From: Acrocarpospora phusangensis
GTDB lineage: Bacteria; Actinomycetota; Actinomycetes; Streptosporangiales; Streptosporangiaceae
Direction: 5' to 3'
Assembly (NCBI RefSeq): GCF_016862995.1
Contig: NZ_BOOA01000069.1
Location: 1 to 40,675, forward strand
DNA length: 40,675 nucleotides
Shown one piece after another: positions 20,256 through 40,592 of this stretch (positions within the stretch are counted from its first letter, which is position 1; each line of letters opens with the position of its first letter). A program made the translations under genes and the position numbers. The notes under the pieces were generated by a model. That model saw only the letters and a program-made list of their open reading frames with translations. It ran no database searches and was not told the origin of the DNA.

Positions 20256-20269
20256 CGGGAGCGCTCCCA
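20256..20269. promoter_or_regulatory. CebR/CelR box, one mismatch
   Basis: CGGGAGCGCTCCCA differs from the 14-bp consensus TGGGAGCGCTCCCA only at its first base. It is 130 bp upstream, centre to centre, of the perfect box at 20386, so DNA looping between the two is possible. Confidence 0.75.
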
Positions 20270-20286
20270 AATGCCCCTCTGGGTGA

Positions 20287-20366
20287 AATGTCACGATATG
20301 CCGGAATCTAGCTGTGCAACCTGTCCAGGAGTAACAGTTAGGTTTCGGCATATTGACGCTGACATT
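20287..20366. repeat. Two-part inverted repeat between the CebR boxes
   Basis: AATGTCA (20287-20293) and ATATGCCG (20296-20303) are mirrored by CGGCATAT (20346-20353) and TGACATT (20360-20366). The arms match exactly, but the spacers between the two blocks differ (2 and 6 nt). The repeat ends just before the -10-like TATAGT at 20370. It may bind a second regulator or form an RNA structure if transcribed. Confidence 0.45.
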
Positions 20367-20369
20367 GCG

Positions 20370-20399
20370 TATAGTGGACTCTTCGTGGGAGCGCTCCCA
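20370..20399 (+). promoter_or_regulatory. cebE promoter -10 and perfect CebR/CelR box
   Basis: TATAGT (20370-20375) is a good -10 element, although no clear -35 stands 16-18 bp upstream. The perfect palindrome TGGGAGCGCTCCCA (20386-20399) begins 10 bp later and would cover the transcription start. This is the operator sequence described for Thermobifida CelR and Streptomyces CebR, released by cello-oligosaccharides. Confidence 0.85.
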
Positions 20400-20489
20400 A
20401 CGCAGACTCAACGCAGGGCCACGTTGTCGGGGACGGGCCCGGGAGGCGCCCCCAAACGAGATTCGGGAACCACCTGAGAGGGGTCCGGA

Positions 20490-21833
20490 ATGATGAAGAA
20501 CACGCGCCGCGGCAGGCTGCTCGCGGCCGTCGCGGTTGGCGCTCTAGCCTTGTCGGCCGCCGCCTGCGGTTCGGACGACCCCGCGCCGTCCGGCGCGGCC
20601 AGCGGCTCCGCCTCTGCCCCGGCGGAGAAGGTCGAGATCACCCTGCAGACCTTCGGCGGCGGCGAGAACTTCGCCTACGACGAGGCGGTCAAGGCCTGGA
20701 ACGCCAGCCACCCCAACGTCCAGGTCAAGTACGTGAACCTGACCGACCGGTTCGAGGACACGTACCTGCCCCAGGTGCTCCAGTGGCTGGAGGCTGGCAG
20801 TGGCGCCGGCGACATCATCGGCATGGACGAGGGCGCCATGGGCCTCATGTCCGCCCGCCCGCAGTACTTCGCCGACCTGTCGCAGTACGGCCTGGACAGC
20901 CGCAAGGCCGACTTCCCCGAGTACAAGTGGAACACCGGCATCAACAAGGACGGCAAGCTCTACGCGCTCGGCACCGACATCGGCGGCATGGCCATGTGCT
21001 ACCGCACCGACCTGTTCAAGCAGGCCGGCCTGCCCACCAACCGCGACGAGGTCTCGGCGCTCTGGCCGGACTGGAACGCCTACCTCGAGACCGGCAAGAA
21101 GTTCAAGGCCGCGATGCCCAAGGTCGGCTTCGTGGACGGCGCCAACACCGTCTACAACTCCGTCCTCGCGCAGGAGGCCGGCAAGAACGGCGGCCAGGTC
21201 TACTTCGACACCAACCAGACGCTCATCGTCGACAAGAACCCCGGTGTCAAGGCCGCCTTCGACTACGTGCAGCAGCTCAGCACGGCGGGCCTGACCGCCA
21301 AGCTGCGCTCCTGGACGGAGGAGTGGAACACCGGCCTGCAGAAGGGCAGCTTCGCCACGATGGGCTGCCCGAGCTGGATGCTCGGCGTCATCTCCGGCAC
21401 CTCCGGCGAGGGCAACGCCAACAACTGGGACGTCGCGGCGGTGCCCGGCGGCAGCGGCAACTGGGGCGGCTCCTGGCTGATGGTGCCGTCGCAGAGCAAG
21501 CACCCGAAGGAGGCCGCCGAGGTCCTCAACTACCTCACCGGCAAGGACGGGCACGTCGCCGCCTTCAAGGAGGGCGGCAACTTCCCGAGCAGCCTCCCCG
21601 CGCAGCAGGACCCGGCCGTCGCGGACGCCAAGAACCCGTACTTCAACGACGCGCCGAGCGGGCCGATCTTCTCCGCCTCGGTCGCCAAGCTGTCGCCGGT
21701 GTTCTTCGGTGAGAAGCACGCCCAGGTGAAGGCCGCCGTGGAGGAGGTCCTCGTGGGCGCCGACCAGGGTTCGGTCAAGTGGGCCGACGCCTGGACCCGG
21801 TTCGTGGAGGAGGGCGTCAAGGCCTCGGGCTGA
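20490..21833 (+). CDS. cebE: Cello-oligosaccharide ABC transporter substrate-binding lipoprotein
   Basis: 447 aa. Lipoprotein signal RLLAAVAVGALALSAAAC with Cys26 as anchor, then a Ser/Ala-rich linker and a family 1 solute-binding fold (VEITLQTFGGGENFAYDEAVKAWNASHP and GGSWLMVPSQSKHPKEAAEVLNYL). It captures cellobiose and longer cellodextrins at the cell surface. Order and operator support CebE: it is followed by two CUT1-type permeases, a GH1 beta-glucosidase and a LacI regulator, and preceded by CebR boxes. GAGAGGGG precedes ATG 20490; ATG 20493 is also possible. No ATPase gene is present, which fits the known use of a shared MsiK-type ATPase encoded elsewhere. Confidence 0.9.
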   Translation: MMKNTRRGRLLAAVAVGALALSAAACGSDDPAPSGAASGSASAPAEKVEITLQTFGGGENFAYDEAVKAWNASHPNVQVKYVNLTDRFEDTYLPQVLQWLEAGSGAGDIIGMDEGAMGLMSARPQYFADLSQYGLDSRKADFPEYKWNTGINKDGKLYALGTDIGGMAMCYRTDLFKQAGLPTNRDEVSALWPDWNAYLETGKKFKAAMPKVGFVDGANTVYNSVLAQEAGKNGGQVYFDTNQTLIVDKNPGVKAAFDYVQQLSTAGLTAKLRSWTEEWNTGLQKGSFATMGCPSWMLGVISGTSGEGNANNWDVAAVPGGSGNWGGSWLMVPSQSKHPKEAAEVLNYLTGKDGHVAAFKEGGNFPSSLPAQQDPAVADAKNPYFNDAPSGPIFSASVAKLSPVFFGEKHAQVKAAVEEVLVGADQGSVKWADAWTRFVEEGVKASG

Positions 21834-21900
21834 CCCCCGGGCCGCGAACGTCACCGGCCCCCCGCAGCCCGCGGGCGGGCCGGTCGCCTCGACTCAGAGC

Positions 21901-21930
21901 GGCCAGTGCAGGGCTTCGGCCCCCCTGGCC
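21901..21930 (+). ncRNA. Intercistronic stem-loop between cebE and cebF
   Basis: GGCCAG (21901-21906) pairs with CTGGCC (21925-21930), and an inner GGGC-TTCG-GCCC carries a stable UUCG tetraloop. It lies in the 122-bp gap after the binding-protein gene. Such hairpins commonly protect the upstream mRNA or cause partial termination, so the binding protein is made in excess over the permeases. Confidence 0.55.
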
Positions 21931-21955
21931 GCTCCTTCCACGAAAGGTTGCAGTG

Positions 21956-22930
21956 ATGAGCCTCGACGTCGACGCGGGCCATAGGACCCGCACGCTGCCG
22001 TCGAATCAACGGCGGCACGCCCGGCCGCCAGGACCCCGGCGGCTGTTGTCCTGGCTGGACCTGCGGGCAGCGCCCTACTTCTTCGTCTCGCCGTACTTCG
22101 TGCTCTTCGCGATCTTCGGCGTCTTCCCGCTGATCTTCACCCTCTGGGTGTCCCTGCACGACTGGCAGCTCGCGGGCGACAAGACCTTCATCGGCATGGA
22201 GAACTACACCGAGCTCCTCGCCGACGACAAGTTCTGGAACTCGGTCGTCAACACGGTCGCCATCTTCGTGATCGCCACGGTGCCGCAGCTGCTCCTGGCC
22301 CTGCTGCTGGCGAACGCGCTGAACAAGCGGCTGCGCGGCCGGCTGATCCTGCGGCTCAGCGTGCTCGCGCCGCTGGTCACCTCGGTGGTCGCGGTGGCCG
22401 TCGTCTTCACCCAGCTGTACGGACGCGACTACGGCATGGTCAACTGGCTGCTGAGCCTGGTCGGCGTGGAGCCCATCCACTGGCAGAACGCGAGCTGGTC
22501 GTCCTGGATCGCGATCGCCACGATGGTGGACTGGCGCTGGACCGGCTACAACGCGATCATCTACCTGGCCGCCATGCAGACCATTCCGAAAGACCTGTAC
22601 GAGGCCGCGGCCATCGACGGCGCCAGCCCCCGCAAGCAGTTCTGGGGCATCACCGTCCCGCTGCTCAAGCCCACCATCATATTCACCGTCATCGTCTCCA
22701 CGATCGGCGGTTTCACGCTGTTCGCCGAGCCGGTGATGTTCGGTTCCGGCCTCATGACCGGCGGCACCACGGGCCAGTTCCAGACGGTGGCCATGTTCAT
22801 CGTCAAGGAGGGCTTCCGCGACTTCCAGTACGGCTACGCCGCCGCGGCGGCCTGGATCCTCTTCCTGCTGATCCTGATCTCCGCATTGATCAACTTCGCG
22901 CTCGTACGCGGACTCGGGAGATCACGATGA
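21956..22930 (+). CDS. cebF: Cello-oligosaccharide ABC transporter permease
   Basis: About 324 aa, MalF-type permease with about six transmembrane helices starting at APYFFVSPYFVLFAIFGVFPLIFTLWVSL. The EAA loop reads EAAAIDGASPRKQFWGITVPLLKPTIIF. ATG 21956 has GAAAGG at 8 nt; GTG 21953 is an in-frame alternative. The basic N-terminal 30 residues (TRTLPSNQRRHARPPGPRR) are cytoplasmic. It overlaps cebG by ATGA. Together they form the membrane channel for cellodextrins bound by CebE. Confidence 0.9.
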   Translation: MSLDVDAGHRTRTLPSNQRRHARPPGPRRLLSWLDLRAAPYFFVSPYFVLFAIFGVFPLIFTLWVSLHDWQLAGDKTFIGMENYTELLADDKFWNSVVNTVAIFVIATVPQLLLALLLANALNKRLRGRLILRLSVLAPLVTSVVAVAVVFTQLYGRDYGMVNWLLSLVGVEPIHWQNASWSSWIAIATMVDWRWTGYNAIIYLAAMQTIPKDLYEAAAIDGASPRKQFWGITVPLLKPTIIFTVIVSTIGGFTLFAEPVMFGSGLMTGGTTGQFQTVAMFIVKEGFRDFQYGYAAAAAWILFLLILISALINFALVRGLGRSR

Positions 22931-23811
22931 CCACACTCACGCAGACCCGCCCGCCCGCCTCCCGCGCGGGCGCCAACCGGCTCGACCCGTTCCGGGCCAC
23001 CCCGTTCACCAAGGCCATGCTGGCCCTGGCGATCTTCCTGTCGATCTTCCCGATCTACTGGATGATCATCATCGCGACCCGGAGCAACGAGGACGCGCAC
23101 AGCGTGCCGCCGCCGTTCCTGCCGGGCGGCAACCTGGGCGAGAACATCCAGGCGGTGTTCGACGCCGAGAACGCCCACTTCATGACGGGCATCATCAACT
23201 CGATCATCATCGCGTCCACGGTCACCGTGGGCATCGTGGTGATCTCGACGCTGGCCGGCTTCGCCTTCGCCTCGCTCAACTTCCGCGGCCGCAACCTGTT
23301 GCTGCTGTCGGTGGTGCTGACCATGATGGTCCCCCTGCAGCAGATGGGCATCGTCCCGCTGTACCAGATGATGGTCACCCTGGGCTGGACGAACACCCTC
23401 AAGGCGGTCATCCTCCCGTTCCTGGTGAACGGGTTCGGCGTCTTCCTGATGACGCAGTACACCCGGCAGGCCGTGCCCCGCGAACTCGTCGAGGCGGCCC
23501 GGGTGGACGGCGCCAACACCCTGCGGATCTGGTGGAACGTCGCGGTCCCCGCGGTCCGGCCCGGCATGGCGGTGCTCGCCATCCAGACCTTCATGCTCAT
23601 CTGGAACGAGTTCCTCTGGCCGTTGATCATCCTGACGCCGGACAACCCGACCGTCCAGGTGGCGCTCCGGGCCCTCAACGACCGATACTCCACCAACTAC
23701 GTGCTCATCTTCGCGGGCACCACGATCTCCATCATCCCGCTCCTGCTGGTCTTCGTCCTCTTCGGCCGCCAGATCATCGGCGGACTCATGGAAGGCGCGG
23801 TCAAGGAGTGA
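22927..23811 (+). CDS. cebG: Cello-oligosaccharide ABC transporter permease
   Basis: 294 aa, MalG-type partner permease. Six hydrophobic segments are visible, from MLALAIFLSIFPIYWMIIIATRS to ISIIPLLLVFVLFGRQIIGGLMEGAVKE, whose GA(V)KE end is typical of the family. The EAA loop is ELVEAARVDGANTLRIWWNVAVPAVRPGMAVLAI. It is translationally coupled to cebF (ATGA), and the GH1 gene starts 64 bp downstream. Confidence 0.9.
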   Translation: MTTLTQTRPPASRAGANRLDPFRATPFTKAMLALAIFLSIFPIYWMIIIATRSNEDAHSVPPPFLPGGNLGENIQAVFDAENAHFMTGIINSIIIASTVTVGIVVISTLAGFAFASLNFRGRNLLLLSVVLTMMVPLQQMGIVPLYQMMVTLGWTNTLKAVILPFLVNGFGVFLMTQYTRQAVPRELVEAARVDGANTLRIWWNVAVPAVRPGMAVLAIQTFMLIWNEFLWPLIILTPDNPTVQVALRALNDRYSTNYVLIFAGTTISIIPLLLVFVLFGRQIIGGLMEGAVKE

Positions 23812-23875
23812 GCCCGCGATCGGAAACCATTCACCTATCAAGCGCCTCGGTCACACGGCCGGCGAAGGAGGACTC

Positions 23876-25315
23876 GTGACCACCCACAAGCCAGACACCC
23901 AGCTCGAAACGCCAGGTCTGGTGTTTCCCACCGGTTTCGTCTGGGGTGCGGCCACCTCCGCGTACCAGATCGAGGGTGCGCTCGACGTCGACGGGCGCGG
24001 CCGGTCGATCTGGGACACCTTCTGCGCCACGCCCGGCCGTGTGGTCAACGGCGAGGACGCCCGGGTCGCGATCGACCACTACAACCGCTACCGGGACGAC
24101 GTGCGCCTGATGGCCGACCTCGGCCTGTCCGCGTACCGGTTCTCGGTGTCCTGGTCCAGGATCCAGCCGCTGGGCAGCGGCGCGATCAACAACAAGGGCC
24201 TGGACTTCTACAAGAACCTGGTGGACGAGCTCCTCAGCTACGGGATCGACCCGTGGCTGACGCTCTACCACTGGGACCTTCCGCAGGCGCTGGAAGACGC
24301 GGGCGGCTGGCCGTCACGCGACACGTCGAAGCGCTTCGCGGACTTCGCGGCGGCGGTGCACGGCGCCCTCGGCGACCGGGTCAAGAACTGGAGCACCGTC
24401 AACGAGCCGTGGTGCGCGGCGCTTCTGGGGTACGCCTCTGGGGAGCACGCACCGGGACGGCGTGAGCCCGCCAAGGCGATCCACGCCGCGCACCACCTCA
24501 ACCTGGCGCACGGCCTGGCCGTGGAGGCGATGCGCGCCCAGCACGCCGACTCCAGGATCGCCGGTTCCGTCAACCTCTACGCGGTGACCCCGGCCACCGA
24601 GAGCGAGGCGGACCAGGACGCGGCCCGGCGCGTCGACGGCCTGCAGAACCGCTTCTTCCTGGACGCGCTCATGTACGGCCGCTACCCGGAGGACGTGCTG
24701 GCCGACCTGAGCCACCTGACCACCCCGGACGAGTTCATCCAGGACGGCGACCTGGCGGCGATCGCGGCGCCGCTGGACATGCTGATGATCAACTACTACA
24801 GCCGGTTCACCGTGTCCGGCGCGCCCGGCGGGGCCCAGTCGGCCGCCGCCGCGCCCACGGACTCGGGCTCGCCGTGGGTCGGCAGCGAGCACGTCGGTTT
24901 CGTCAACGGGGGCCGCCCGGTGACGTCCATGGGATGGGAGGTGGACGGTACCGGCCTGTACGAGGTGCTCACCCGGCTGGCGCGCGAGTACCCGTCCATC
25001 CCGCTGTACATTTCAGAGAACGGCGCCGCCTACGACGACGTCCTCACCGAGGACGGCACCGTCCACGACGCGGAGCGGCGCGACTTCATCGATACCCACC
25101 TGCGTGTTTGTCACCAGGCCATCGAGGGTGGAGTGCCCCTGCAGGGCTACTTCGCCTGGTCCCTCATGGACAACTTCGAGTGGGCCTGGGGCTACGACAA
25201 GCGGTTCGGGCTGGTCTATGTGGACTATTCAACGCAGACGAGGATCCTGAAAGATAGCGCTCTCTGGTATGCCGAGACCATCCGGCACGGAGGCCTTCGG
25301 GGTCCGGCAGAATAG
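23876..25315 (+). CDS. bglC: Intracellular GH1 beta-glucosidase
   Basis: 479 aa, no signal peptide, so it acts on imported cellobiose. It shows FVWGAATSAYQIEGALDVDGRG, acid/base Glu177 in STVNEPWCAALLG, HAPGR, and nucleophile Glu381 in YISENGAAY, plus the glycone-site FEWAWGYDKRFGLVYVDY. All key GH1 residues are present and the length is normal. GTG 23876 is preceded by GAAGGAGGA. Its place after cebEFG and before cebR matches cellobiose operons in Thermobifida and Streptomyces; hydrolysis removes the inducer and yields glucose. Confidence 0.93.
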   Translation: MTTHKPDTQLETPGLVFPTGFVWGAATSAYQIEGALDVDGRGRSIWDTFCATPGRVVNGEDARVAIDHYNRYRDDVRLMADLGLSAYRFSVSWSRIQPLGSGAINNKGLDFYKNLVDELLSYGIDPWLTLYHWDLPQALEDAGGWPSRDTSKRFADFAAAVHGALGDRVKNWSTVNEPWCAALLGYASGEHAPGRREPAKAIHAAHHLNLAHGLAVEAMRAQHADSRIAGSVNLYAVTPATESEADQDAARRVDGLQNRFFLDALMYGRYPEDVLADLSHLTTPDEFIQDGDLAAIAAPLDMLMINYYSRFTVSGAPGGAQSAAAAPTDSGSPWVGSEHVGFVNGGRPVTSMGWEVDGTGLYEVLTRLAREYPSIPLYISENGAAYDDVLTEDGTVHDAERRDFIDTHLRVCHQAIEGGVPLQGYFAWSLMDNFEWAWGYDKRFGLVYVDYSTQTRILKDSALWYAETIRHGGLRGPAE

Positions 25316-25341
25316 GCCCAAGTGATGAGGGGGCAGATTTG

Positions 25342-26361
25342 ATGAACGGGGACCGCCGCTTGGCCGCCAGACCGACGCTCGAAGCGGTCGCGGCCAGGGC
25401 CGGGGTCGGGCGTGGCACGGTGTCACGGGTCATCAACGGGTCGCCGAAGGTGAGCGACAAGGCCCGCGACGCCGTGCTGCTCGCGATCGACGAACTCGGG
25501 TACGTGCCCAACCGGGCGGCCAGGACCCTGGTCACCAACCGGACCGACACCATCGCGCTGGTGGTGTCGGAGTCGGAGCAGCGGGTGTTCGACGAGCCGT
25601 ACTTCGCCGGGCTCATCCGCGGCATCGGCTCGGCCCTGGCCGAGACCGGGCTGCAGCTCATCCTGAGCATGGCGCAGAACAGGAACGAGCACGACCGGCT
25701 GGAGAACTACCTGACCGGGCAGCACGTGGACGGCGTGCTGCTGACCTCGGTGCACGGCGCCGACCCGCTGCCCGGCCGGCTGGAGAACCTGGGCGTGCCG
25801 ACCGTGCTGGGCGGCCGTCCCGTGGGGCTCAATCCGTACAGCTACGTGGACATGGACAACCGGGCGGGCGCCCGGCAGGCGGTGAAGTACCTGCTCGGCA
25901 ACGGCCGGTCCCGGGTGGCCACGATCGCGGGCCCCCAGGACATGGGCGTGGGCGTGGACCGTCTCGCCGGGTACCGGGACGCGCTGCTGGCCACCGGCAC
26001 GCCGGAGCGGGTGGCGTACGGCGACTTCTCCGAGGAGAGCGGCTCCACGGCGATGCGCGAGCTGCTGGACCGGCACGGCGACCTCGACGCGGTGTTCGCG
26101 GCCTCCGACCCGATGGCCGTGGGAGCGCTCCGAGTGCTCCGGGAGCGCGGCAGGTCCGTCCCGGGCGACGTCGCGCTGATCGGGTTCGAGGACTCCAAGG
26201 TCGCGCTGCACACCGATCCTCCCCTGACCAGCGTCCACCAGCCCACGGAGTCCATGGGCCGGCAGATGGTCCAGCTCCTGGTGGCCCGGATCAACGGCGA
26301 GCCCCTGGAACAGCCCGTGGTCATCCTGGACACCCACCTGGTGATCCGCGCCAGCACGTGA
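25342..26361 (+). CDS. cebR: LacI-family repressor of cello-oligosaccharide genes
   Basis: About 339 aa. The N-terminal HTH reads PTLEAVAARAGVGRGTVSRVINGSPKVSDKARDAV, followed by the hinge LGYVPNRAARTLVTNRT and a periplasmic-binding-protein-like sensor domain with VDMDNRAGARQAVKYLLGNG, FAASDPMAVGALRVL and GFEDSKVALHTDPPLTSVHQP. ATG 25342 has GAGGGGG at 8 nt. It lies 26 bp after bglC, so it is probably co-transcribed with the genes it represses, giving negative autoregulation. The cognate operator is expected to be TGGGAGCGCTCCCA, found at four perfect or near-perfect intergenic places in the window. It is called CelR in Thermobifida. Confidence 0.9.
   Translation: MNGDRRLAARPTLEAVAARAGVGRGTVSRVINGSPKVSDKARDAVLLAIDELGYVPNRAARTLVTNRTDTIALVVSESEQRVFDEPYFAGLIRGIGSALAETGLQLILSMAQNRNEHDRLENYLTGQHVDGVLLTSVHGADPLPGRLENLGVPTVLGGRPVGLNPYSYVDMDNRAGARQAVKYLLGNGRSRVATIAGPQDMGVGVDRLAGYRDALLATGTPERVAYGDFSEESGSTAMRELLDRHGDLDAVFAASDPMAVGALRVLRERGRSVPGDVALIGFEDSKVALHTDPPLTSVHQPTESMGRQMVQLLVARINGEPLEQPVVILDTHLVIRAST
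26120..26133. promoter_or_regulatory. CebR-box-like sequence inside cebR
   Basis: TGGGAGCGCTCCGA matches 13 of 14 consensus bases. It encodes part of the conserved VGALR segment, so the match may come from codon choice alone. If bound, it could act as a transcriptional roadblock. Confidence 0.3.
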
Positions 26362-26372
26362 CGACCGCCGCG

Positions 26373-26412: not shown

Positions 26413-27324
26413 TCAGTCGCTCATGGCCACCAGGACTCTGCGGGAGCCGGTGAACGGGCGGCGGCCGTGGCCGACCAGGATGTTGTCGATCAGGAGCACG
26501 TCACCGGTCCGCCAGTCCACGTCCACGGCGTTCTCCAGGCCGCGGTCGCGGGCCTGGATGACGTGGCCGGGCGGGATCGGGCTGCCGTCGGCGAAGGCGA
26601 CCGACTGGGGCAGGTCCTCGGGTGGCATGATCTCGGCCAGCATGGCGGCGGTGTCGTCGCCGAGGGAGGCCGGGTGCCACTGGTCGGCCTGGTTGAACCA
26701 GACCTCGGCGCCGGTGACGGGGTGGCGGGTGGTCGCGGGCCGTACCTGGCTGACCCGGATGCCGCCGTCGGCCCGCCACTCCCATTCGGCGGCCGAGGCG
26801 TCCAGGAACGCCTCCACCTCGGGTCTGGAGTCCGTCTCGAAGGTGTCCTGCCAGCTCTTGCCCAGGCCCATGCCGCCGTGCAGGTTCTGGGTGTAGCGCA
26901 CGCCCTTGGCGAAGTCGTCGCGTACGCCGGGGTCGAGGGACTCCAGCCAGCGCACGCCGTCCACCACCGGCGTGGCTCCCCCGGTGGCGGCGGCCCGGGC
27001 GCAGAAGAACAGCAGCCGGGACGGCCAGCCGGCCGCGTAGGACAGCTCGTTGTGCATGGAGATGGTGAACTCGGCCGGGTACTCCGTGGAGGTGTACACG
27101 TTCTGCCCCACCTTGGTGCGGGGCGAGTTGCCGTGCACGTAGGCGAGCCGGTTGGGCAGCAGCAGCTCCATCGGCCCTTCCAGGGTTTGCTCGGTGACCC
27201 CGAACCCGCGGAAGACCAGCGCCTTCTCCCGGACCAGCAGGTCGTCGACGGGGTTGGCGCGCAGGTAGTCGGCGAGGCTCTGCCCGGGGCTCTCGGGAGC
27301 GATCTCGAATGGCTGCCAGGTCAT
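26413..27324 (-). CDS. TauD/TfdA-family Fe(II)/2-oxoglutarate dioxygenase, SyrP-like
   Basis: 303 aa. The iron ligands appear as His and Glu in MHNELSYAAGWP (HxE in place of HxD, as in the SyrP subgroup) and the distal His in DNILVGHGRRPFTGSRRVLVAM, where the following Arg would bind 2-oxoglutarate. LLFFCARAAATGGATPVVD is also typical of SyrP-like enzymes, some of which hydroxylate the beta carbon of Asp or Asn on NRPS carriers. The ATG at 27324 overlaps the upstream glycosyltransferase stop as ATGA, so the two form one minus-strand operon. Divergence from the NRPS operon suggests a tailoring role. It could instead act on a small free substrate. Confidence 0.85.
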   Translation of the reverse strand: MTWQPFEIAPESPGQSLADYLRANPVDDLLVREKALVFRGFGVTEQTLEGPMELLLPNRLAYVHGNSPRTKVGQNVYTSTEYPAEFTISMHNELSYAAGWPSRLLFFCARAAATGGATPVVDGVRWLESLDPGVRDDFAKGVRYTQNLHGGMGLGKSWQDTFETDSRPEVEAFLDASAAEWEWRADGGIRVSQVRPATTRHPVTGAEVWFNQADQWHPASLGDDTAAMLAEIMPPEDLPQSVAFADGSPIPPGHVIQARDRGLENAVDVDWRTGDVLLIDNILVGHGRRPFTGSRRVLVAMSD

Positions 27325-28556: not shown

Positions 28557-28601
28557 ACGCACCACTCCGGGTCGAGAAAACCACCTGACGGCGTCTTGGC
28601 C

Positions 28602-28614
28602 ATGAAACTTTCAT
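28602..28614. promoter_or_regulatory. GAAACTTTC-type palindrome upstream of the GT1 gene
   Basis: ATGAAACTTTCAT is a perfect 13-bp palindrome and an exact copy of the core at 8245-8257. It lies 46 bp before the glycosyltransferase start, a normal operator position. The core resembles xylan/beta-xyloside regulator sites, but no such regulator is in the window. Confidence 0.5.
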
Positions 28615-28656
28615 TTCCCTTGCATCGGTGGCCTGCGGTGAGTGATACTCCCATTC

Positions 28657-28670
28657 AGAGAGCGCTCTCT
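28657..28670. promoter_or_regulatory. CebR-box variant palindrome
   Basis: AGAGAGCGCTCTCT is a perfect 14-bp palindrome with the same central GAGCGCTC as the CebR box but changed symmetrically at positions 1/14 and 3/12. It may be a lower-affinity CebR site or the site of a paralogous LacI regulator controlling the minus-strand GT1/dioxygenase operon. Confidence 0.5.
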
Positions 28671-28862
28671 TGCGCACTTCCCCGACCCCGGAATGAGTAC
28701 AAAGAAGCAGTACGGACGTATCCTTGTCAACCGGTGACCCCGATATCGGGAACGTCCTGGCGCGTCGCTTCACGCACTTCCTCATCGTCGAGGCCGTGAC
28801 TTTTTTTAAGTATCATACTATCCTGGCCCAAGGCATGTGACCTGCACGAAGCCCACTGGAGG

Positions 28863-28876
28863 TGGACGCGCTCCCA
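28863..28876. promoter_or_regulatory. Degenerate CebR/CelR box
   Basis: TGGACGCGCTCCCA has 12 of 14 consensus bases with one intact half (GCGCTCCCA). It is 134 bp upstream, centre to centre, of the perfect box at 28997, similar to the 130-bp spacing of the pair before cebE. Confidence 0.5.
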
Positions 28877-28996
28877 CGCTTGGCTATTTCTTGCGGATGT
28901 GACACGAAATCACCATGTGAGCGACCGTGTGACACGTCGGCCGCCTGTGGTCTTGCGCCATGGGATCGGTTCATTTAATCTCTTTGGGAGGCGCTG

Positions 28997-29010
28997 TGGG
29001 AGCGCTCCCA
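28997..29010. promoter_or_regulatory. Perfect CebR/CelR box before the NRPS operon
   Basis: TGGGAGCGCTCCCA lies 124 bp before the GTG start of the megaprotein and just downstream of the candidate -10 TTAATC. It is identical to the cebE operator and well placed to block transcription of the biosynthetic operon unless cello-oligosaccharides are present. The abutting upstream sequence TGGGAGGCGCTGTGGGA (from 28985) is a degenerate half-copy. Confidence 0.85.
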
Positions 29011-34507: not shown

Positions 34508-34827
34508 CCCCCACTGAGTCGGCCGTCTCGGAGATCTGGACCGAACTGCTCGGGCAGGCTCCGCCGACCGTCCACGACGACTTCTTCGAGCTCGGCGGCC
34601 AGTCGCTGACCATGGTCCAGTTCCTGGCCAGAGTCGAGGAGCAGTACGGCGTCGAGCTCCCCATCGACGTGCTGTTCACCTCCGGGTTCACGGTCGCCGA
34701 GGCGGCCAAGGCGATCGACCAGGGCCGGCTGGAGGCGGTCGGCGAGCAGGAGCTGGCCGAGCTGCTCAAGCACCTGGAGGGCATGTCCGACGAGGAGATC
34801 AGCGAACTGCTCTCGGAAGACGCATGA
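34504..34827 (+). CDS. Stand-alone carrier protein (PCP/ACP)
   Basis: 107 aa. A single phosphopantetheine-carrier domain with DDFFELGGQSL and attachment Ser34. Residues 80-107 form an acidic helix ending LEGMSDEEISELLSEDA, the type of tail often found at the ends of NRPS chains and possibly a docking element. The ATGA overlaps on both sides couple it to the megaprotein and the GT4. It may hold the acyl group supplied by the E1/E2 proteins, or the amino acid to be hydroxylated or glycosylated. The megaprotein already has its own T domain, so this is a second thiolation site. Confidence 0.88.
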   Translation: MTPTESAVSEIWTELLGQAPPTVHDDFFELGGQSLTMVQFLARVEEQYGVELPIDVLFTSGFTVAEAAKAIDQGRLEAVGEQELAELLKHLEGMSDEEISELLSEDA

Positions 34828-36050
34828 GGATACTGCTGGCCCAGAACATGTTCCACCTGCCGAGCCACGGCGGGGCGAACAAGTCCAACCGGGTCCTGCT
34901 CGAACAGCTCGCGGCGCGCGGCCACGAGTGCCATGTGGTGGCGCCCATGTCGGGCGCCCTCCGGGCCACCTCCGTGGACGAGCACGTCGCCTACCTGCAG
35001 CGGATCGGCGCGACGGTCAAGTCGGTGACCGGGGACGGGGTCGAGTACACCTACCAGGGCGTGCACGCCTGCGCGGTCGCGCGGGCGCCGCAGCTGGCCG
35101 CCCGGGTCGGCGAGGTGGCCGCCGAGGTCAAGCCGGACTGGACGCTGGTGCCGTCCGACGACCCCGGCCTGCTCATGCTGGGAGCCGCGCTGAAGGCGAC
35201 GCCGGAGCGGGTGGTCTATCTCGCGCACACGCTCCAGCAGCTGCCGTTCGGCCCCGGCGCGTTCTACCCGAGCGCGGCCGGGACCCGGATGGTGAAGCGG
35301 GCGGCGAGCGTGCTGGCGGTCAGCAAGGCGGCGCAGTCGTACCTGGAGCGCTGGGGCGAACTGCGGTCGGCGCTGCTCTACCCGCACATCTACGGCGACC
35401 CGCCGGAACGCGCCGACGGCACGTACGTGACGATGATCAACCCGTGCGGCTACAAGGGCCTGGCCATCCTGCTCGGCCTGGCCGACGCCCGCCCGGACGT
35501 GCCGTTCCTGGCGGTGCCCACCTGGGGGGCTACCCCGCCGGAGCTGGCCGAGCTGGCCGGGCGGCCGAACATCACGGTGATCGAGCCGTCCGACGAGATC
35601 GACGACATCCTGGCCAGGACCCGGGTGCTGCTGATGCCCTCGCTGTGGGACGAGACGTTCGGCTACACCTGCGTGGAGGCGATGGCGCGCGGCATCCCGG
35701 TGCTCGCCTCGGACGTGGGCGGGCTGGCCGAGGCCAAGCTCGGCGTGCCGTACCTGCTGCCGGTCCGGCGGATCGAGAAGTACGAGTCGGCCGGGCACGC
35801 GCGGCCTGTCCCGGTGGTGCCGGAACAGGACCTGGGGCCGTGGGCGGACGCGCTGTCGGCGGTGCTCGCCCACCCCGACCTGTACCGCGAGCTGTCGCGG
35901 CGTTCCCGCGCGTCCGCCCGCGACTTCATCGCCTCCCTGGACGAGGACGCGCTGGAGACCCACCTCACCGCGCTGCGGCCGAACCGGCGGCAGGCCGCCC
36001 TGGCGGCGCTCGCGGCCCGGAAGAAGGAAGGCAGGACGACCACCACATGA
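34824..36050 (+). CDS. GT4-family glycosyltransferase
   Basis: 408 aa, GT-B fold. It starts MRILLAQNMFHLPSHGGANKSNRVLLEQLAARGHE, the classic GT4 N-terminus with a GGA motif. The donor site is ETFGYTCVEAMARGIPVLASDVGGLAE, containing the E-x7-E signature. The central MINPCGYKGL segment is typical of family members in peptide and lipopeptide clusters. It is coupled by ATGA overlaps to the carrier protein and E1alpha genes. With the GT1 enzyme across the control region, the pathway has two glycosyltransferases. Whether it modifies a carrier-bound intermediate or the released product cannot be seen. Confidence 0.87.
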   Translation: MRILLAQNMFHLPSHGGANKSNRVLLEQLAARGHECHVVAPMSGALRATSVDEHVAYLQRIGATVKSVTGDGVEYTYQGVHACAVARAPQLAARVGEVAAEVKPDWTLVPSDDPGLLMLGAALKATPERVVYLAHTLQQLPFGPGAFYPSAAGTRMVKRAASVLAVSKAAQSYLERWGELRSALLYPHIYGDPPERADGTYVTMINPCGYKGLAILLGLADARPDVPFLAVPTWGATPPELAELAGRPNITVIEPSDEIDDILARTRVLLMPSLWDETFGYTCVEAMARGIPVLASDVGGLAEAKLGVPYLLPVRRIEKYESAGHARPVPVVPEQDLGPWADALSAVLAHPDLYRELSRRSRASARDFIASLDEDALETHLTALRPNRRQAALAALAARKKEGRTTTT

Positions 36051-36973
36051 TCGGCGCGATTGTGGAGCGGGTACGGGCGCTGACGCCCGTGGCCGACGCG
36101 GATCTGGAGCGCATGCTCAGGATCAGGCACTTCGAGCGGGCGCTGCTGCGCCTGTTCGAGCGCGGCCAGCTCAACGGCACGACGCACACCTGCCTGGGCC
36201 AGGAGCACGTCCCGGTGGCGGTCAGCGGCCTGCTCGACCCGGACGACTACGTGTTCAGCAACCACCGCGGCCACGGCCACTTCCTGGCCAGGCACGACGA
36301 GCCGCACGCGCTGCTGGCCGAGATCATGGGCCGGCAGGGCGCGGTCTGCAACGGGGTGGGCGGCAGCCAGCACGTCTACCACGGGCGGTTCCTGTCCACC
36401 GGGGTCCAGGGCGAGAGCCTGCCGGTGGCGGTGGGGGTGGCGCTGCGGCTGAAGCGGGTCACGCCGGGACGGCTCGCCTGCGCGTACGTGGGGGACGGGA
36501 CCTGGGGTGAGGGGTCGGTCTACGAGGCGCTGAACATGGCGCAGCTGTGGCGGGCGCCGCTGCTGGTCGTGGTGGAGCACAACGGGATCGCGCAGTCCAC
36601 GCCGACGGGCGCGCAGATGTCCGGCTCGATCGCGGGCCGCGCGGCGGCGTTCGGCGTGCGGCACCACCGGATCGACTCGGTGGACGTGAACGTGATCAGG
36701 CACGAGCTGGCCCCGCTGGTGGCGGCGGTCAGGTCCGAGTCCCGGCCGGCGGTGGCCGAGATCAGGGTGCATCGGGCCGGCCCGCACAGCAAGGGCGACG
36801 ACACCCGCACCCCCGAGGAGCTGCGGGAGGCCGCCGAGGGCGACTGGCTGCCCGCCTACGCGGACTCCTTCCCCGAGCAGTTCGCCCGGCTGGACGAGGA
36901 GCAGCGGGCCTTCATCGGCCGGGTCGTGGACGACGTGCTGATCCGCCCGGCGTCGGACTGGGAGCGGCCATGA
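36047..36973 (+). CDS. 2-oxoacid dehydrogenase-like E1 alpha subunit (TPP-dependent)
   Basis: 308 aa. The thiamine diphosphate/Mg motif is G149-D-G in YVGDGTWGEGSVYEALNMAQLW, closed by the Asn in VVEHNGIAQST. NHRGHGHFLA and NGVGGSQHVY are family marks of PDH/acetoin-type E1alpha. It decarboxylates a 2-oxoacid (or in related antibiotic systems takes a two-carbon unit from a ketose) and passes the acyl group to the E2 lipoyl arm. ATGA overlaps join it to the GT4 and to E1beta. Its embedding in an NRPS operon, without E3, argues for a dedicated acyl-supply role rather than central metabolism. Confidence 0.9.
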   Translation: MIGAIVERVRALTPVADADLERMLRIRHFERALLRLFERGQLNGTTHTCLGQEHVPVAVSGLLDPDDYVFSNHRGHGHFLARHDEPHALLAEIMGRQGAVCNGVGGSQHVYHGRFLSTGVQGESLPVAVGVALRLKRVTPGRLACAYVGDGTWGEGSVYEALNMAQLWRAPLLVVVEHNGIAQSTPTGAQMSGSIAGRAAAFGVRHHRIDSVDVNVIRHELAPLVAAVRSESRPAVAEIRVHRAGPHSKGDDTRTPEELREAAEGDWLPAYADSFPEQFARLDEEQRAFIGRVVDDVLIRPASDWERP

Positions 36974-37953
36974 GGGTCGCCGAGCACCTGAACGAGGCGC
37001 TGCACGCGCTGCTGGACGCCGACCCCTCGGTGCACGTGCTGGGCGAGGACATCGCCGACCCCTACGGCGGCGCCTTCAAGATCACCAAGGGCCTGTCCAG
37101 CAAGCACGGCTCCCGGGTCATCTCCACCCCGCTCAGCGAGGGCGGCATCGTGGGCGTCGGCGCCGGCCTCGCCCTGGCGGGCGACCGCGCCATCGTCGAG
37201 ATCATGTTCGGCGACTTCGCCGCGCTCGCCTTCGACCAGCTGCTCAACTTCGCCAGCAAGTCCACCACCATGTACGGCAGGCGCGTGCCCATCCCCCTGG
37301 TCGTACGCTGCCCCACCGGCGGCCGGCGCGGCTACGGCCCCACCCACAGCCAGAGCCTGCAGAAGCACTTCATCGGCATCCCCGGCCTCGACCTGTACGA
37401 GCTGAGCCCGTTCCACGACGCGCACGCCCTGCTGGCCACCATGTTCGCCCGCCAGAACCCCTGCGTGCTGTTCGAGGACAAGGTCCTCTACACCCGCCGG
37501 GTCTGCCGCGAGGGCGTCGTGGACGACCTGTTCCGGTTCGAGCTCACCGGCGGCTGGGCCCGCGTGTACGCCGACGGCGACGTGCCCCCCGACTGCGTGA
37601 TCATCGCCCCCGGAGGCCTGACCGACCGCTGCCTGGAGGCCATGCGCGACCTGCTCATGGAGGACGAGATCACCTGCGAGCTCCTGGTCCCCGAACGCCT
37701 CTACCCGCTCGACCCCGCGCCTGTCATGCCGATCCTGCGCGGCGTGCGCACGGTCTGCGTGGCCGAGGACGGCTCCGCGGGCGGCACCTGGGGCGCCGAG
37801 GTGGCCCGGCTGCTCCATCCCGAGCTGTGGGCCTCCCTGTCCGGGCCGATCCGGCTGGTCAGCGCGGCCGACTCGATCATCCCCACGGCCGCGCACCTGG
37901 AACGCGAGGTCCTGGTCCAGGCGGACACCATCAGGAAGGCGGTGCTGGCGTGA
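36970..37953 (+). CDS. 2-oxoacid dehydrogenase-like E1 beta subunit
   Basis: 327 aa, the transketolase-like partner of E1alpha. Recognisable segments are VLGEDIADPYGGAFKITKGLSSKHG, TPLSEGGIVGVGAGLALAGDRAIVEIMFGDF, RCPTGGRRGYGPTHSQSLQKHF and the C-terminal ELLVPERLYPLDPAPV. The catalytic Glu region (SEGG) and the GPTHSQ-containing loop are present. It overlaps E1alpha by ATGA and E2 by a GTGA. The substrate may be pyruvate, acetoin or a branched 2-oxoacid; sequence alone does not decide. Confidence 0.9.
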   Translation: MRVAEHLNEALHALLDADPSVHVLGEDIADPYGGAFKITKGLSSKHGSRVISTPLSEGGIVGVGAGLALAGDRAIVEIMFGDFAALAFDQLLNFASKSTTMYGRRVPIPLVVRCPTGGRRGYGPTHSQSLQKHFIGIPGLDLYELSPFHDAHALLATMFARQNPCVLFEDKVLYTRRVCREGVVDDLFRFELTGGWARVYADGDVPPDCVIIAPGGLTDRCLEAMRDLLMEDEITCELLVPERLYPLDPAPVMPILRGVRTVCVAEDGSAGGTWGAEVARLLHPELWASLSGPIRLVSAADSIIPTAAHLEREVLVQADTIRKAVLA

Positions 37954-39158
37954 CCGAGGTCAGGGTGCCCAAGCTCAACAACAACGACACCAGCTACATC
38001 CTGGTCGAGTGGCTGGCCGCCGACGGCGACGCGGTGGCGATCGGCGACCCGCTGGTGGTGGTGGAGACCTCCAAGACCGCCGAGGAGCTGCTGGCCGAGG
38101 ACGCGGGCATCCTGCGCCGGGTGGTGGCCGAGGGCGCCGACTGCGAGCCGGGCCAGCTGATCGCCCGGCTCCAGCGTCCCGGCGAGACGGAGACGGCGGA
38201 GGCGGTGCCCGCCGTCACGGCTGCCACAGCGACCACGGCGGCCAGTTCGGCCAGTTCGGCCAGTTCGGCCAGGGAGTCCGGGGGGACGGCCGGGCCCGGT
38301 CTCGGCGGAACCGGGGACCTCGCGGATCTCGGGGACCTCGGGGATCTCGTCGTCACCGCGCCCGCGCGGGCACTCATGGAGGAGCTGGGCGTGCCCGCCG
38401 AGCGGCTGCGCACGCTGGGCAAGAAGGTGATCCGCCGCGAGGACGTGGCGGCGCTCGCCGCCCCGGGTCCCGGCTCCCGCGCCGGGCTGGTCGCGCTGAG
38501 CAAGGCGCAGCGGCTGACCGGCGAGGTGGTACGGCGCTCGCACGAGACCATCCCGGCCGCCTTCACCGCCGTCAAGGTCGACGTGACCGGCACCGCCAAG
38601 CTCACCCGCGACCTGTCCCGGCACGCCCGTACCCTGATCGGCCTGTCCGAGCTGCTGGTGAAGGCCGTCGCCGACCAGCGGGCCGACTTCCCGCTGATGT
38701 TCGCCACCCTGGTGGAACCCGGCTACGTACGGCTGGCCGAGGCCTCCCACGTGGGCGTGACCATCGACGTCGGGAAGGGCCTGTTCATCCCGGTCGTCAG
38801 GGACGCCGACACCCGCCCGCTGGACGCGGTGGCCCGCGAGCTCATGGACCACCGGATGACCGCGCTGCGCGGCAGCTTCCGGGAGCGGGACCTGGAGGGC
38901 GCCAACATCGCCGTCACCCTGCACAACGACGGCGCGGTGACCGTGGCCGTGCCGATCGTCTATCCGGGCCACGTCTGCGCGCTGTCGCTGGCCGCGACCC
39001 AGCAGGAGGTGGTGGCCGCCGATGATGGTTTCACGGTCCGGCAGACCGTGCAGCTGGGCCTCGCCTTCGACCATCGCGTGGTCAACGGGCGGGACGCCGC
39101 GATGTTCCTGGGCGCGGTGAAGCAGATGCTGGAGACGCCGCGGCGATGGCTGGAATAA
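37950..39158 (+). CDS. 2-oxoacid dehydrogenase-like E2 acyltransferase
   Basis: 402 aa. A single lipoyl domain (residues 1-75) carries Lys42 in VETSKTAEE. A low-complexity Ala/Ser/Gly linker encoded by tandem 9-bp repeats leads to a peripheral-subunit-binding domain (TAPARALMEELGVPAERLRTLGKKVIRREDV, about 134-165), then the catalytic domain (about 175-402). The C-terminal motif reads DHRVVNG (His375, Asn379), whereas classical E2 proteins have DHRxxDG, so the conserved Asp is replaced by Asn. GTG 37950 overlaps the E1beta stop (GTGA). It probably passes the acyl group from lipoamide to CoA or directly to the carrier protein encoded upstream. Confidence 0.9.
   Translation: MTEVRVPKLNNNDTSYILVEWLAADGDAVAIGDPLVVVETSKTAEELLAEDAGILRRVVAEGADCEPGQLIARLQRPGETETAEAVPAVTAATATTAASSASSASSARESGGTAGPGLGGTGDLADLGDLGDLVVTAPARALMEELGVPAERLRTLGKKVIRREDVAALAAPGPGSRAGLVALSKAQRLTGEVVRRSHETIPAAFTAVKVDVTGTAKLTRDLSRHARTLIGLSELLVKAVADQRADFPLMFATLVEPGYVRLAEASHVGVTIDVGKGLFIPVVRDADTRPLDAVARELMDHRMTALRGSFRERDLEGANIAVTLHNDGAVTVAVPIVYPGHVCALSLAATQQEVVAADDGFTVRQTVQLGLAFDHRVVNGRDAAMFLGAVKQMLETPRRWLE
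38241..38349 (+). repeat. Tandem repeats encoding the E2 linker
   Basis: CCAGTTCGG occurs three times in a row with a partial fourth (38242-38272), encoding Ala-Ser-Ser units. A second block, 38316-38349, is two near-identical copies of an 18-bp unit made of GACCTCG and GGATCTCG, encoding Asp-Leu-Gly-type units. Both keep the reading frame, so linker length can change by slippage without frameshift. Confidence 0.7.
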
Positions 39159-39168
39159 CCCGGCGTAC

Positions 39169-39188
39169 GGTATTCCTGCCGATACCGC
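39169..39188. repeat. Short inverted repeat between E2 and the GH1 gene
   Basis: CGGTAT (39169-39174) and ATACCG (39183-39188) flank 8 nt in the 61-bp gap. It is a weak hairpin that could modulate read-through or mRNA stability, or bind a regulator. Confidence 0.35.
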
Positions 39189-39219
39189 CCAGTTGTGGCG
39201 ATACCCATCTAGGAGGCCC

Positions 39220-40521
39220 ATGAACGCCTTGCGGTTCCCCAGCGAATTCGTCTGGGGCGCGTCCACGTCCGCGTACCAGATCGAGGGAGCGACCAAGGAG
39301 GACGGGCGGGGGGTGTCCATCTGGGACACCTTCGCCGCCACGCCGGGAAAGGTGCGCAACGGCGACACCGGCGACCCGGGCGCCGACCACTACCACCGCT
39401 ACGCGCAGGACCTGGACCTGATGCGCGAGCTCGGACTGCGCAGCTACCGGTTCTCGGTGGCCTGGCCGCGGATCCAGCCCAACGGCTCGGGCAAGCCCAA
39501 CCAGAAGGGCCTGGACTTCTACCGGCGGCTGGTCGACGGCCTGGTGGACCGCGGCATCCGGCCGATGGTGACGCTGTTCCACTGGGACCTGCCGCAGGCG
39601 CTGCAGGACGCGGGCGGCTGGGAAAGCCGGGACACGGCGCTGCGGTTCGCCGAGTACGCGGAGATCGTCTTCGGCGCGCTGCACACCCGGGACTGGCTGA
39701 CGATCAACGAGCCCAAGACGGTGGTCGACTGCGGCTACCGCCAGGGCGTGCACGCGCCGGGGATCGCGGACTGGGACCGCGCCCTGGTCGCCTGCCACCA
39801 CCTGCTGCTGGCGCACGGCCTGGCCTCCCGCCTGCTGCACGAGCGGCACCCGGGCCGCCGGATCGGACCCGCGCTCAACCTGCACCCCACCTACCCGGCC
39901 GAGGACACCCAGGCGTGCCGGGACGCGGCCGAGCGGCAGGACGTCATCGAGAACCGGCTCTACCTGGACCCGATCTTCAAGGGCTACTACCCCGAGGAGA
40001 CGCTGCCGGCCGACCGGAGCCACATCAGGGAGGGCGACCTGGCGGTGATCAGCGAGCCGATCGACCTGCTCGCCGTGCAGTACTACACGCCGGTCTTCGT
40101 CGGCCCCGACCAGCTCCGGGTGATCAAGCACACGACCCGGCAGGCCGGCTGGCTGGAGGACTACCCCGACGGCTTCCACGACATCCTGACCCGGGTCCAC
40201 CGCGACTATCCCGCGGTCCCCTTGGTCATCACCGAGAACGGCCTGGCCACCGACGACGAGCCCGGCCCCGACGGCCGCGTCGCCGACGAGGACCGCGTCT
40301 CGTACCTGCGCGGGCACCTGGCCGCGATGCACCGCGCCATGAAGGCGGGCGTCCCGGTCGAGGGCTACCACGTCTGGTCGCTCATGGACAACTACGAGTG
40401 GGCCGAGGGCTACGCCCAGCGCTTCGGCATCGTGCACGTCGATTTCGAATCCCAGAAACGCACCCCGAAAGACAGCGCCATCTGGTACCGCGATCTGATC
40501 AGAACCGGAGAACTCCACTAA
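39220..40521 (+). CDS. Second GH1 beta-glucosidase, in the biosynthetic operon
   Basis: 433 aa, no signal peptide. It shows FVWGASTSAYQIEGATKEDGRG, acid/base Glu164 in TINEPKTVVDCG, nucleophile Glu339 in VITENGLATDD and YEWAEGYAQRFGIVHVDF near the end, so the GH1 active site is complete. It is a paralogue of the 479-aa enzyme, shorter mainly in the loop before the nucleophile. ATG 39220 follows AGGAGG closely (3 nt). Only 61 bp separate it from the E2 gene, so it is probably in the same CebR-controlled transcript. It could cut cellobiose, or remove glucose from a glycosylated metabolite made by the neighbouring glycosyltransferases. Confidence 0.9.
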   Translation: MNALRFPSEFVWGASTSAYQIEGATKEDGRGVSIWDTFAATPGKVRNGDTGDPGADHYHRYAQDLDLMRELGLRSYRFSVAWPRIQPNGSGKPNQKGLDFYRRLVDGLVDRGIRPMVTLFHWDLPQALQDAGGWESRDTALRFAEYAEIVFGALHTRDWLTINEPKTVVDCGYRQGVHAPGIADWDRALVACHHLLLAHGLASRLLHERHPGRRIGPALNLHPTYPAEDTQACRDAAERQDVIENRLYLDPIFKGYYPEETLPADRSHIREGDLAVISEPIDLLAVQYYTPVFVGPDQLRVIKHTTRQAGWLEDYPDGFHDILTRVHRDYPAVPLVITENGLATDDEPGPDGRVADEDRVSYLRGHLAAMHRAMKAGVPVEGYHVWSLMDNYEWAEGYAQRFGIVHVDFESQKRTPKDSAIWYRDLIRTGELH

Positions 40522-40547
40522 CCGCCCGATTACCCCGGGCCAATTAG

Positions 40548-40592
40548 TTGACTATCCAGCCAAAATCCACTTAACTAATGGGAGCGCTCCCA
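40548..40592 (+). promoter_or_regulatory. Promoter with perfect CebR/CelR box at the right edge
   Basis: TTGACT (40548-40553), a 17-bp spacer and TTAACT (40571-40576) form a promoter-like unit, followed at once by TGGGAGCGCTCCCA (40579-40592) over the expected start site. It probably drives a gene beyond the window; a divergent or terminator-side role is less likely because the boxes point right. Confidence 0.75.

Follow-up and report, generated by a model that had tools for sequence, protein, structure and literature searches.

We analyzed a 40,675-nt contig of Acrocarpospora phusangensis, a member of the Streptosporangiaceae (NZ_BOOA01000069.1, or C69, of a 9.11-Mb, 219-contig genome; the window, below, is this whole contig), which carries a cellobiose-utilization (ceb) operon, the gene of its LacI-family regulator, celR, and a nonribosomal peptide synthetase (NRPS) operon (Table 1). 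The 14-bp palindrome TGGGAGCGCTCCCA at position 28997, in front of the NRPS gene, is a predicted operator of the CelR/CebR-type repressor, whose gene lies 2.6 kb away. Our explanation as a whole, to which we give a probability of roughly 0.78, is that CelR represses the cluster, that cellobiose releases it, and that an E1/E2 enzyme loads a carrier protein for the NRPS and the glycosyltransferases; we infer CelR binding, induction by cellobiose, and the chemistry and its order. Taken separately, regulation of the NRPS operon by CelR and cellobiose is highly probable on the comparative evidence.

This evidence comes mainly from the recurrence of the box in other genomes. A profile search of a species genome collection with the GT4-type glycosyltransferase gave 29 named loci, 26 of which, in 10 genera, carry genes for the stand-alone peptidyl carrier protein (PCP), GT4, E1α, E1β, and E2 (Acrocarpospora, 4 loci; Herbidospora, 7; Sphaerisporangium, 2; Nonomuraea, 2; Pseudonocardia, 1; Kitasatospora, 3; Streptomyces, 2; Micromonospora, 1; Dactylosporangium, 3; and Actinoplanes, 1). 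Together with the window and one more genome, G034, these gave 28 operon lead regions with approximate gene starts. Loci in which no E1/E2 was found were dropped (L072, whose upstream stretch, L101, is another contig; L078; and L079), the lead regions of L070, L074, L076, and L080 were taken from separate upstream stretches, and A. corrugata (L055) was counted at its NRPS remnant. The box was perfect in 21 lead regions, had one mismatch in 4 and two in 1, and was lacking from 2. Perfect copies were found in Acrocarpospora (5/5, window included), Herbidospora (7/7), Sphaerisporangium (1/2), Nonomuraea (2/2), Kitasatospora (3/3), Streptomyces (2/2), and G034; the one-mismatch form TGGAAGCGCTCCCA in Micromonospora and the three Dactylosporangium loci; and a two-mismatch form in Pseudonocardia. 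At least one member of 9 of the 10 genera therefore has the box with two mismatches or fewer, and it stands at the lead also where gene order differs. Among 2,800 first-order resampled lead regions, none had a perfect box, 2 had at most one mismatch, and 15 had at most two. Upstream regions of 283 other genes in the same loci included 14 perfect, 0 one-mismatch, and 2 two-mismatch boxes; besides the cluster leads, the perfect boxes in the named loci stand at the aldose-1-epimerase-like gene and cebE, according to a listing in which the 14 are not itemized. The comparison, with 0 or 1 mismatch at 25 of 28 leads, strongly supports the core proposal of an earlier note on this DNA, that a cello-oligosaccharide repressor controls the pathway.

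Such a box could be a by-product of the cluster having landed beside the ceb operon, with no regulation of the NRPS genes. The cluster indeed adjoins ceb or lies within ~13 kb of it in Acrocarpospora, in those Herbidospora loci that extended as far as celR, in S. album, in G034, and in Pseudonocardia (the cluster of A. pleiomorpha, considered as a case far from ceb, was rejected as such because ceb is ~13 kb away). However, the three Kitasatospora and two Streptomyces loci have a perfect box at the lead and no ceb homolog in the 15 to 21 kb examined, and the box is conserved above its surroundings in the intergenic region, making a by-product very improbable indeed. In an alignment of this region from 5 Acrocarpospora and 7 Herbidospora sequences, 34% of columns were invariant overall, the operator box was invariant in 12/12 sequences, and GTGGGAGCGCTCCCA formed the second-longest invariant run (15 columns). 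The weaker box at 28863 lies in an invariant 20-bp block of 5/5 Acrocarpospora sequences and is absent from 7/7 Herbidospora sequences; it is a possible auxiliary operator.

Box and regulator also vary together. In Pseudonocardia, TGAGAGCGCTCTCA occurs before the cluster (L068:8389) and also before the ceb operon next to it (L068:3400). The LacI protein there shares 45% identity with the CelR of the window and has SRATAGRVL in place of GRGTVSRVI, and the genome has perfect TGGGAGCGCTCCCA in 0 places, so that the cluster box, ceb box, and regulator helix differ together. (What looked like another ceb operon behind the variant box in Pseudonocardia was rejected, since L145 and L068 encode the same set of proteins and represent a single place.) In Streptomyces YS415, the cluster box is perfect, a ceb-like locus likewise has a perfect box, and the LacI protein carries the common form, GRGTVSRVINGS.

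Within the genome of A. phusangensis, perfect TGGGAGCGCTCCCA occurs in 15 places (reversed control, 0) and copies with at most one mismatch in 27 (reversed control, 1). In the window, all of the positions and match scores previously given were recovered (perfect at 20386, 28997, and 40579; 13/14 at 20256; 12/14 at 28863); the list of near-copies had omitted one further 13/14 copy, at 26120 inside celR. At up to three mismatches, the window has 9 sites versus a shuffle mean of 5.56, and 9 were reached in 7 of 100 shuffles; this count does not stand clearly above the shuffles, and therefore only sites with 0 or 1 mismatch carry weight on their own. The 26120 copy was rejected as an autoregulatory site: it lies in a coding region whose protein is 97 to 99% identical among relatives, and it was found in A. 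macrocephala and A. corrugata but not in A. catenulata. All three perfect copies had been placed at promoters; the copies stand, but 40579 was rejected as a site of the NRPS pathway because the equivalent box in relatives fronts an aldose-1-epimerase-like gene (named from its sequence, with no family search). In the window, 83 bases separate the end of this box from the contig end.

The 12 perfect sites outside the window delineate what we read, from their neighbors, as a cellulose regulon containing NRPS genes. Next to them are genes for a glycoside hydrolase (GH) family 6 protein with a carbohydrate-binding module (GH6-CBM2; C22), a CBM2 protein followed by a GH9 (C34:85988), GH12-CBM2 (C41), GH9-CBM2 (C100), CBM2-like proteins, identified by sequence, that are cut by contig ends (C1 and C87; at C87, a protein with no Pfam match lies alongside), a LacI gene together with a solute-binding protein (C47), an NRPS (C34:25595), and a condensation-domain protein with a divergent NRPS-like gene (C165); two sites on C31 (48419 and 51045; L032) flank a LacI gene and a kinase-like gene; A. 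catenulata and A. corrugata also have a two-box arrangement whose LacI protein has the same start. The genome-wide search thus gave little sign of a box common at unrelated genes: only 1 of 15 perfect sites lacks a sugar, LacI, or NRPS neighbor (C51, next to a secreted-looking protein with no Pfam match at 1e-5). Among one-mismatch sites, those at C8, C54, and C151 had no obvious target among their neighbors. Thirteen stretches around perfect sites in A. catenulata include GH48, GH5, and GH6 (Pfam, five proteins searched) and one C165-type NRPS pair; twelve in A. corrugata show similar protein starts (not family searched) and both C165-type and C34-type NRPS loci. The palindrome at the promoter, boxes at cellulase genes elsewhere in the genome (GH6, GH9, GH12, and CBM2), and a CelR-type LacI regulator encoded together with cebEFG-bgl are all present, as expected of a CelR/CebR regulon. 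The cebE promoter itself has two boxes exactly 130 bp apart in five Acrocarpospora (window included), Herbidospora galbida, and G034, and likewise in S. album, where cebE is placed by position only (loci besides the window: L041, L045, L047, L049, L106, L138, and L157); the conserved spacing suggests cooperative binding or looping.

The LacI protein of the window, which the earlier note had called CebR, is of the CelR/CebR type by its full-length match to Protein Data Bank (PDB) entry 5ysz (412 bits; E = 1.3e-122), with which it shares an identical recognition segment, AGVGRGTVSRVINGS. The title of the entry reads only "Transcriptional regulator, LacI family"; we take it to be Thermobifida fusca CelR. 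Both CebR and CelR are described as repressors relieved by cellobiose (PMC8914351 and PMC3377646; here and below, statements from cited papers refer to the parts of each that were available to us), and CelR sites and ceb-type operons are reported for T. fusca and relatives (PMC3377646). By analogy, in the absence of cellobiose, CelR on the 28997 operator would block the NRPS-PCP-GT4-E1α-E1β-E2 operon, perhaps with the terminal GH1 gene; CebEFG would import cello-oligosaccharides, CelR would be released, and the pathway would be turned on together with the cellulases, the importer, and the β-glucosidases.

Several observations weigh against this reading. The lead of S. album has only a three-mismatch form, with 12 perfect copies elsewhere in its genome, and Actinoplanes utahensis, whose genome contains 15 perfect copies, carries no box (best, five mismatches) at its PCP-GT1-GT4-E1-E2 set. 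In Micromonosporaceae, the cebE promoters carry one-mismatch forms such as TGGGAACGCTCCCA, TGGGAGCGTTCCCA, and TGGGAGCGCTCCCG and not the TGGAAGCGCTCCCA of the cluster; there, we consequently claim similarity of the boxes, not identity. The 28 lead regions are not independent (5 are from one genus and 7 from another), and the events are fewer than the rows. The longest invariant run in the intergenic alignment is a 17-column T-rich stretch, longer than the box. Lastly, a LacI gene on C31, 43% identical to CelR, lies between two perfect boxes, as would be expected if the box were read by one or more other LacI-family regulators, alone or shared, and not mainly by CelR. The LacI gene on C47 (32% identical) also has one perfect box, and a different LacI-type palindrome, AGAGAGCGCTCTCT, shares the intergenic region with the NRPS box. 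This palindrome has two copies in the genome (28657 in the window and C87:576-589, the latter starting 228 bp from the perfect box at C87:348), each sharing its intergenic region with a perfect CelR box. Within the palindrome, AGCGCTCTCT is invariant in 12/12 Acrocarpospora and Herbidospora sequences and the outer bases vary; PMC3377646 gives the same 14-mer upstream of a Thermobispora bispora ceb-like operon. Nevertheless, the other LacI proteins (C31, C47, and one on C1, among 34 loci searched in the same genome) differ from CelR in the recognition segment, and the Pseudonocardia box and CelR helix differ together; reading by another regulator is therefore unlikely, and CelR remains the preferred candidate.

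The gene content of the operon was as first described (NRPS of C-A-T-TE-MFS type, carrier protein, E1/E2, two glycosyltransferases, and a β-glucosidase) and was confirmed by Pfam. One adjustment concerns membership: the β-glucosidase gene is present, but the enzyme may be catabolic rather than biosynthetic; its homolog in G034 adjoins celR, outside the E1/E2 operon. The condensation (C), adenylation (A), PCP, and thioesterase (TE) core motifs of the NRPS are intact. Its TE nucleophile motif is GHCVG, with cysteine instead of serine, in the window, H. mongoliensis, A. catenulata, and Micromonospora; no TE motif was matched by pattern in the other TE-bearing proteins examined. Cysteine TEs are known from NRPSs that form strained rings. 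Read with the established amino acid meanings of adenylation codes, the module of the window looks Asp/Asn-like and those of other boxed loci Gly-like, Asp/Asn-like, and in one case unclear, assignments by motif that carry little weight. Searches of PDB and NCBIfam with the carrier, TauD, and NRPS proteins pointed to no product, and A. pleiomorpha, A. macrocephala, and A. corrugata showed no TauD gene next to the cluster. A major facilitator superfamily (MFS) domain fused behind the thioesterase was seen in the window, in L132:7396-12735 (Pfam), and in L068:14232-19709 (near full-length alignment).

In the proposed chemistry, the E1/E2 pair would draw a small acyl group from a ketose or a 2-oxo acid and pass it by the lipoyl arm to the stand-alone PCP; the condensation domain would couple it to the NRPS-bound amino acid; one or both glycosyltransferases would add a sugar; TauD would hydroxylate where present; and the TE would release a product that the fused MFS domain exports. 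By analogy with known systems, loading of the PCP by E1/E2 is favored, if well short of assured; that the group is glycolyl rather than another falls somewhat below even odds, and a 2-oxo acid donor is as possible as a ketose donor. The E1 thiamine-diphosphate motif GDGTxGxG is intact in the window and in 26/26 relatives, and the lipoyl motif E[TG][SA]K[AT] is intact in the window and in 25/26 (not seen in L075, a partial match). The catalytic motif of E2 enzymes is, as a rule, HRxxDG. On the side of the chemistry, it counts against the proposal that this motif reads HRxxNG in the window and in 25/26 relatives (HRxxTG in the remaining one, Pseudonocardia), which might signify altered chemistry. 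No E3-binding domain was found in E2 (Pfam; E, 0.001).

The closest parallels are NapB/NapD-NapC of naphthyridinomycin and DinU/DinS-DinT of dnacin, in which a two-component transketolase-type enzyme and a separate small carrier feed an NRPS (PMC7570522). For naphthyridinomycin, PMC7570522 and PMC5384830 cite work describing acyl loading of the E1/E2 type onto a carrier. The operon has the E1 motif, the lipoyl lysine, and a separate carrier beside the NRPS, as expected of loading of the NapB/NapD type, but lacks the intact HRxxDG usual in E2 enzymes. It differs from these systems in having three genes (308, 327, and 402 amino acids [aa], versus 306 aa for DinU and 754 aa for DinS [PMC7570522], compared by description only), in having glycosyltransferases in the core, and in that no KASIII gene was recognized in the operon; a fused E1 occurs in S. 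smaragdinus and in K. phosalacinea NBRC 14627. In the pepteridine cluster of Photorhabdus, E1-like and E2-like proteins without an E3 of their own are likewise proposed to prime a carrier domain directly, but the E2 is fused to thiolation and condensation domains, the acceptor is a pteridine, and the cluster as described has no glycosyltransferase (PMC5384830). Rif15, also a two-component transketolase from natural product biosynthesis, takes ketose phosphates as substrates (PMC6002545).

The two glycosyltransferases would also suit a glycosylated cell-surface or storage component instead of a secreted specialized metabolite. Among the 25 of 83 NCBIfam matches listed for the NRPS, no product-specific model was above its cutoff, and the window also carries NeuB/cytidylyltransferase and DUF6716 genes. 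Set against these points, a C-A-PCP-TE protein whose core motifs are intact and which carries a fused MFS domain is in keeping with a small peptide that is exported, and we consider a surface or storage component quite improbable.

Table 1. Predicted features of the contig discussed in the text (positions in the window)
Feature	Position	Strand	Remarks
CelR-type box, 1 mismatch (CGGGAGCGCTCCCA)	20256..20269		Upstream partner of 130-bp pair before cebE
CelR-type box, perfect	20386..20399		Precedes cebE
Cellobiose-utilization operon	20490..26361	+	Pfam; gene names by analogy
cebE, solute-binding protein	20490-21833	+	Pfam
cebF, permease	21779-22930	+	Pfam; start uncertain
cebG, permease	22927-23811	+	Pfam
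bglC, GH1	23876-25315	+	Pfam
celR, LacI	25339-26361	+	Pfam; best PDB match 5ysz
1-mismatch box inside celR coding sequence	26120..26133		Probably incidental
TauD-family 2-oxoglutarate oxygenase	26413..27324	-	Pfam PF02668; PDB 9yut, 1y0z; start inferred
GT1-type glycosyltransferase, EryCIII-like C-terminal domain	27321..28565	-	Pfam, NCBIfam
LacI-type palindrome AGAGAGCGCTCTCT	28657..28670		Near divergent GT1 gene
2-mismatch box TGGACGCGCTCCCA	28863..28876		134 bp upstream of perfect box
CelR-type operator (predicted) of NRPS operon, perfect	28997..29010		~138 bp upstream of inferred start
NRPS, C-A-PCP-TE-MFS in single polypeptide	29135..34507	+	Pfam; GTG start inferred from homologs
Stand-alone PCP	34504..34827	+	Pfam
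GT4-type glycosyltransferase	34824..36050	+	Pfam; served as cross-genome search probe
E1α-like thiamine-diphosphate subunit	36047..36973	+	Pfam, NCBIfam
E1β-like subunit	36970..37953	+	Pfam, NCBIfam
E2-like acyltransferase, one lipoyl domain	37950..39158	+	Pfam, NCBIfam
Second GH1 β-glucosidase	39193..40521	+	Pfam, NCBIfam
CelR-type box, perfect	40579..40592		Probable operator of aldose-1-epimerase-like gene beyond contig end

To the left of the ceb operon lies a sialic-acid-like sugar locus with a cytidylyltransferase-HAD-NeuB fusion and a DUF6716 putative glycosyltransferase (8694-10757 and 16366-17973), and near the left end of the contig, 1073-2017 gives a weak condensation-domain match (47.9 bits).

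The box is selective among the NRPS loci of A. phusangensis. Its 58 condensation-domain matches group into ~20 loci, 5 of which have a lead box with at most one mismatch (C34, C165, and C69, perfect; C166 and C1:112-117k, one mismatch); two of these locus types (C165 and C34) are boxed without E1/E2. In A. corrugata, genes for three proteins diverge from a box pair: one with a condensation domain (449 aa) and two NRPSs (2142 and 1779 aa). The best matches of this trio outside its own genome are NRPS proteins adjoining PCP-GT1-GT4-E1-E2 in G034, S. album, and Nonomuraea wenchangensis (46 to 56% for the condensation protein and 54 to 58% for the NRPSs), whereas the condensation protein and the second NRPS are less similar to the NRPS of the window (38 to 39%). 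In ten boxed-NRPS stretches (five from A. phusangensis, four from A. corrugata, and one from A. catenulata), no homolog of E1, E2, GT4, TauD, or the second GH1 was found at an E value of 1e-5; GT1 homologs occur at the C1 locus of A. phusangensis (58%) and, weakly, beside the C34 type of A. corrugata (32% over 132 residues). A universal link between box and enzyme type was rejected, since two A. corrugata relatives of the A-PCP-TE-MFS part of the window NRPS, at C51:131432 and C43:171212, have no perfect box listed nearby.

At the A. corrugata ceb locus, the NRPS gene is an in-frame remnant of its two ends (L055:9345-9690), next to a retained box, PCP, GT4, E1α, E1β, and E2. Nothing in that genome exceeded 50% identity to the part of the window NRPS that was searched, compared to 90% in A. 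macrocephala. The remnant reflects either recent loss, or an assembly fault, or a module that works with other NRPS proteins. The last of these leads to a broader reading, which we put forward tentatively and at odds clearly short of even: the CelR box would tie a cluster family found across distant actinobacteria to cellulose, and one E1/E2-carrier-glycosyltransferase module would serve several dispersed Acrocarpospora NRPS lines. Such a module, often in the cellobiose locus, would draw on the same sugar pool to provide a small (glycosylated) acyl starter; the NRPS loci would share no neighborhood, only the CelR box, with the operator holding a dispersed pathway together; and the product would be a secreted glycopeptide specific to growth on cellulose, for example defending freed sugars against competitors. 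That A. corrugata keeps the boxed module and has lost nearly all of the adjoining NRPS gene raised the probability that we give to this reading.

Thaxtomin, the precedent invoked at the outset, is made by NRPSs. In Streptomyces scabiei, CebR does gate its production: this LacI repressor senses cellobiose, has the same 14-bp consensus, and represses a peptide-type natural product pathway (PMC8914351 and PMC12527672). The thaxtomin sites deviate from the consensus by one mismatch, are located far upstream or within coding regions, and exert their effect via the activator TxtR. In the present operon, by contrast, the lead has a perfect site, and neither an activator gene of the TxtR type nor any other regulator was recognized among the genes from 26413 to 40521. 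Our box set also resembles the CelR regulon of T. fusca and other actinobacteria, in which a ceb-type operon and cellulases are CelR targets. In the available text on that regulon (PMC3377646), variants TGAGAGCGCTCTCA and AGAGAGCGCTCTCT are given before ceb-like operons, the former in Catenulispora; secondary metabolism appears once, as a CelR site in the coding region of an A. mirum polyketide synthase, from which it was already suggested as a possible CelR target, and "nonribosomal" gives 0 hits. In the portion of the curated table of PMC12527672 available to us, the CebR sites in biosynthetic gene clusters are those of thaxtomin, and S. scabiei has other clusters that respond to cello-oligosaccharides without predicted CebR sites (PMC8914351). 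We found no report of this NRPS family or its CelR box in a literature search that left most subscription papers outside its reach.

As far as these sources go, thaxtomin is the gene cluster for which direct control by a cellobiose sensor has been shown so far (PMC12527672 and PMC8914351). If our reading is true, the conservation of the box at a single module family across ten genera would show that plant-polymer sensing and peptide biosynthesis became widely linked and have been kept linked. Cellobiose or cellotriose would be a simple candidate inducer for an uncharacterized cluster, and both regulation and product are directly testable in culturable strains. Together, the comparisons suggest that soil actinomycetes and distant relatives may make a small, sugar-decorated peptide when feeding on plant fiber.

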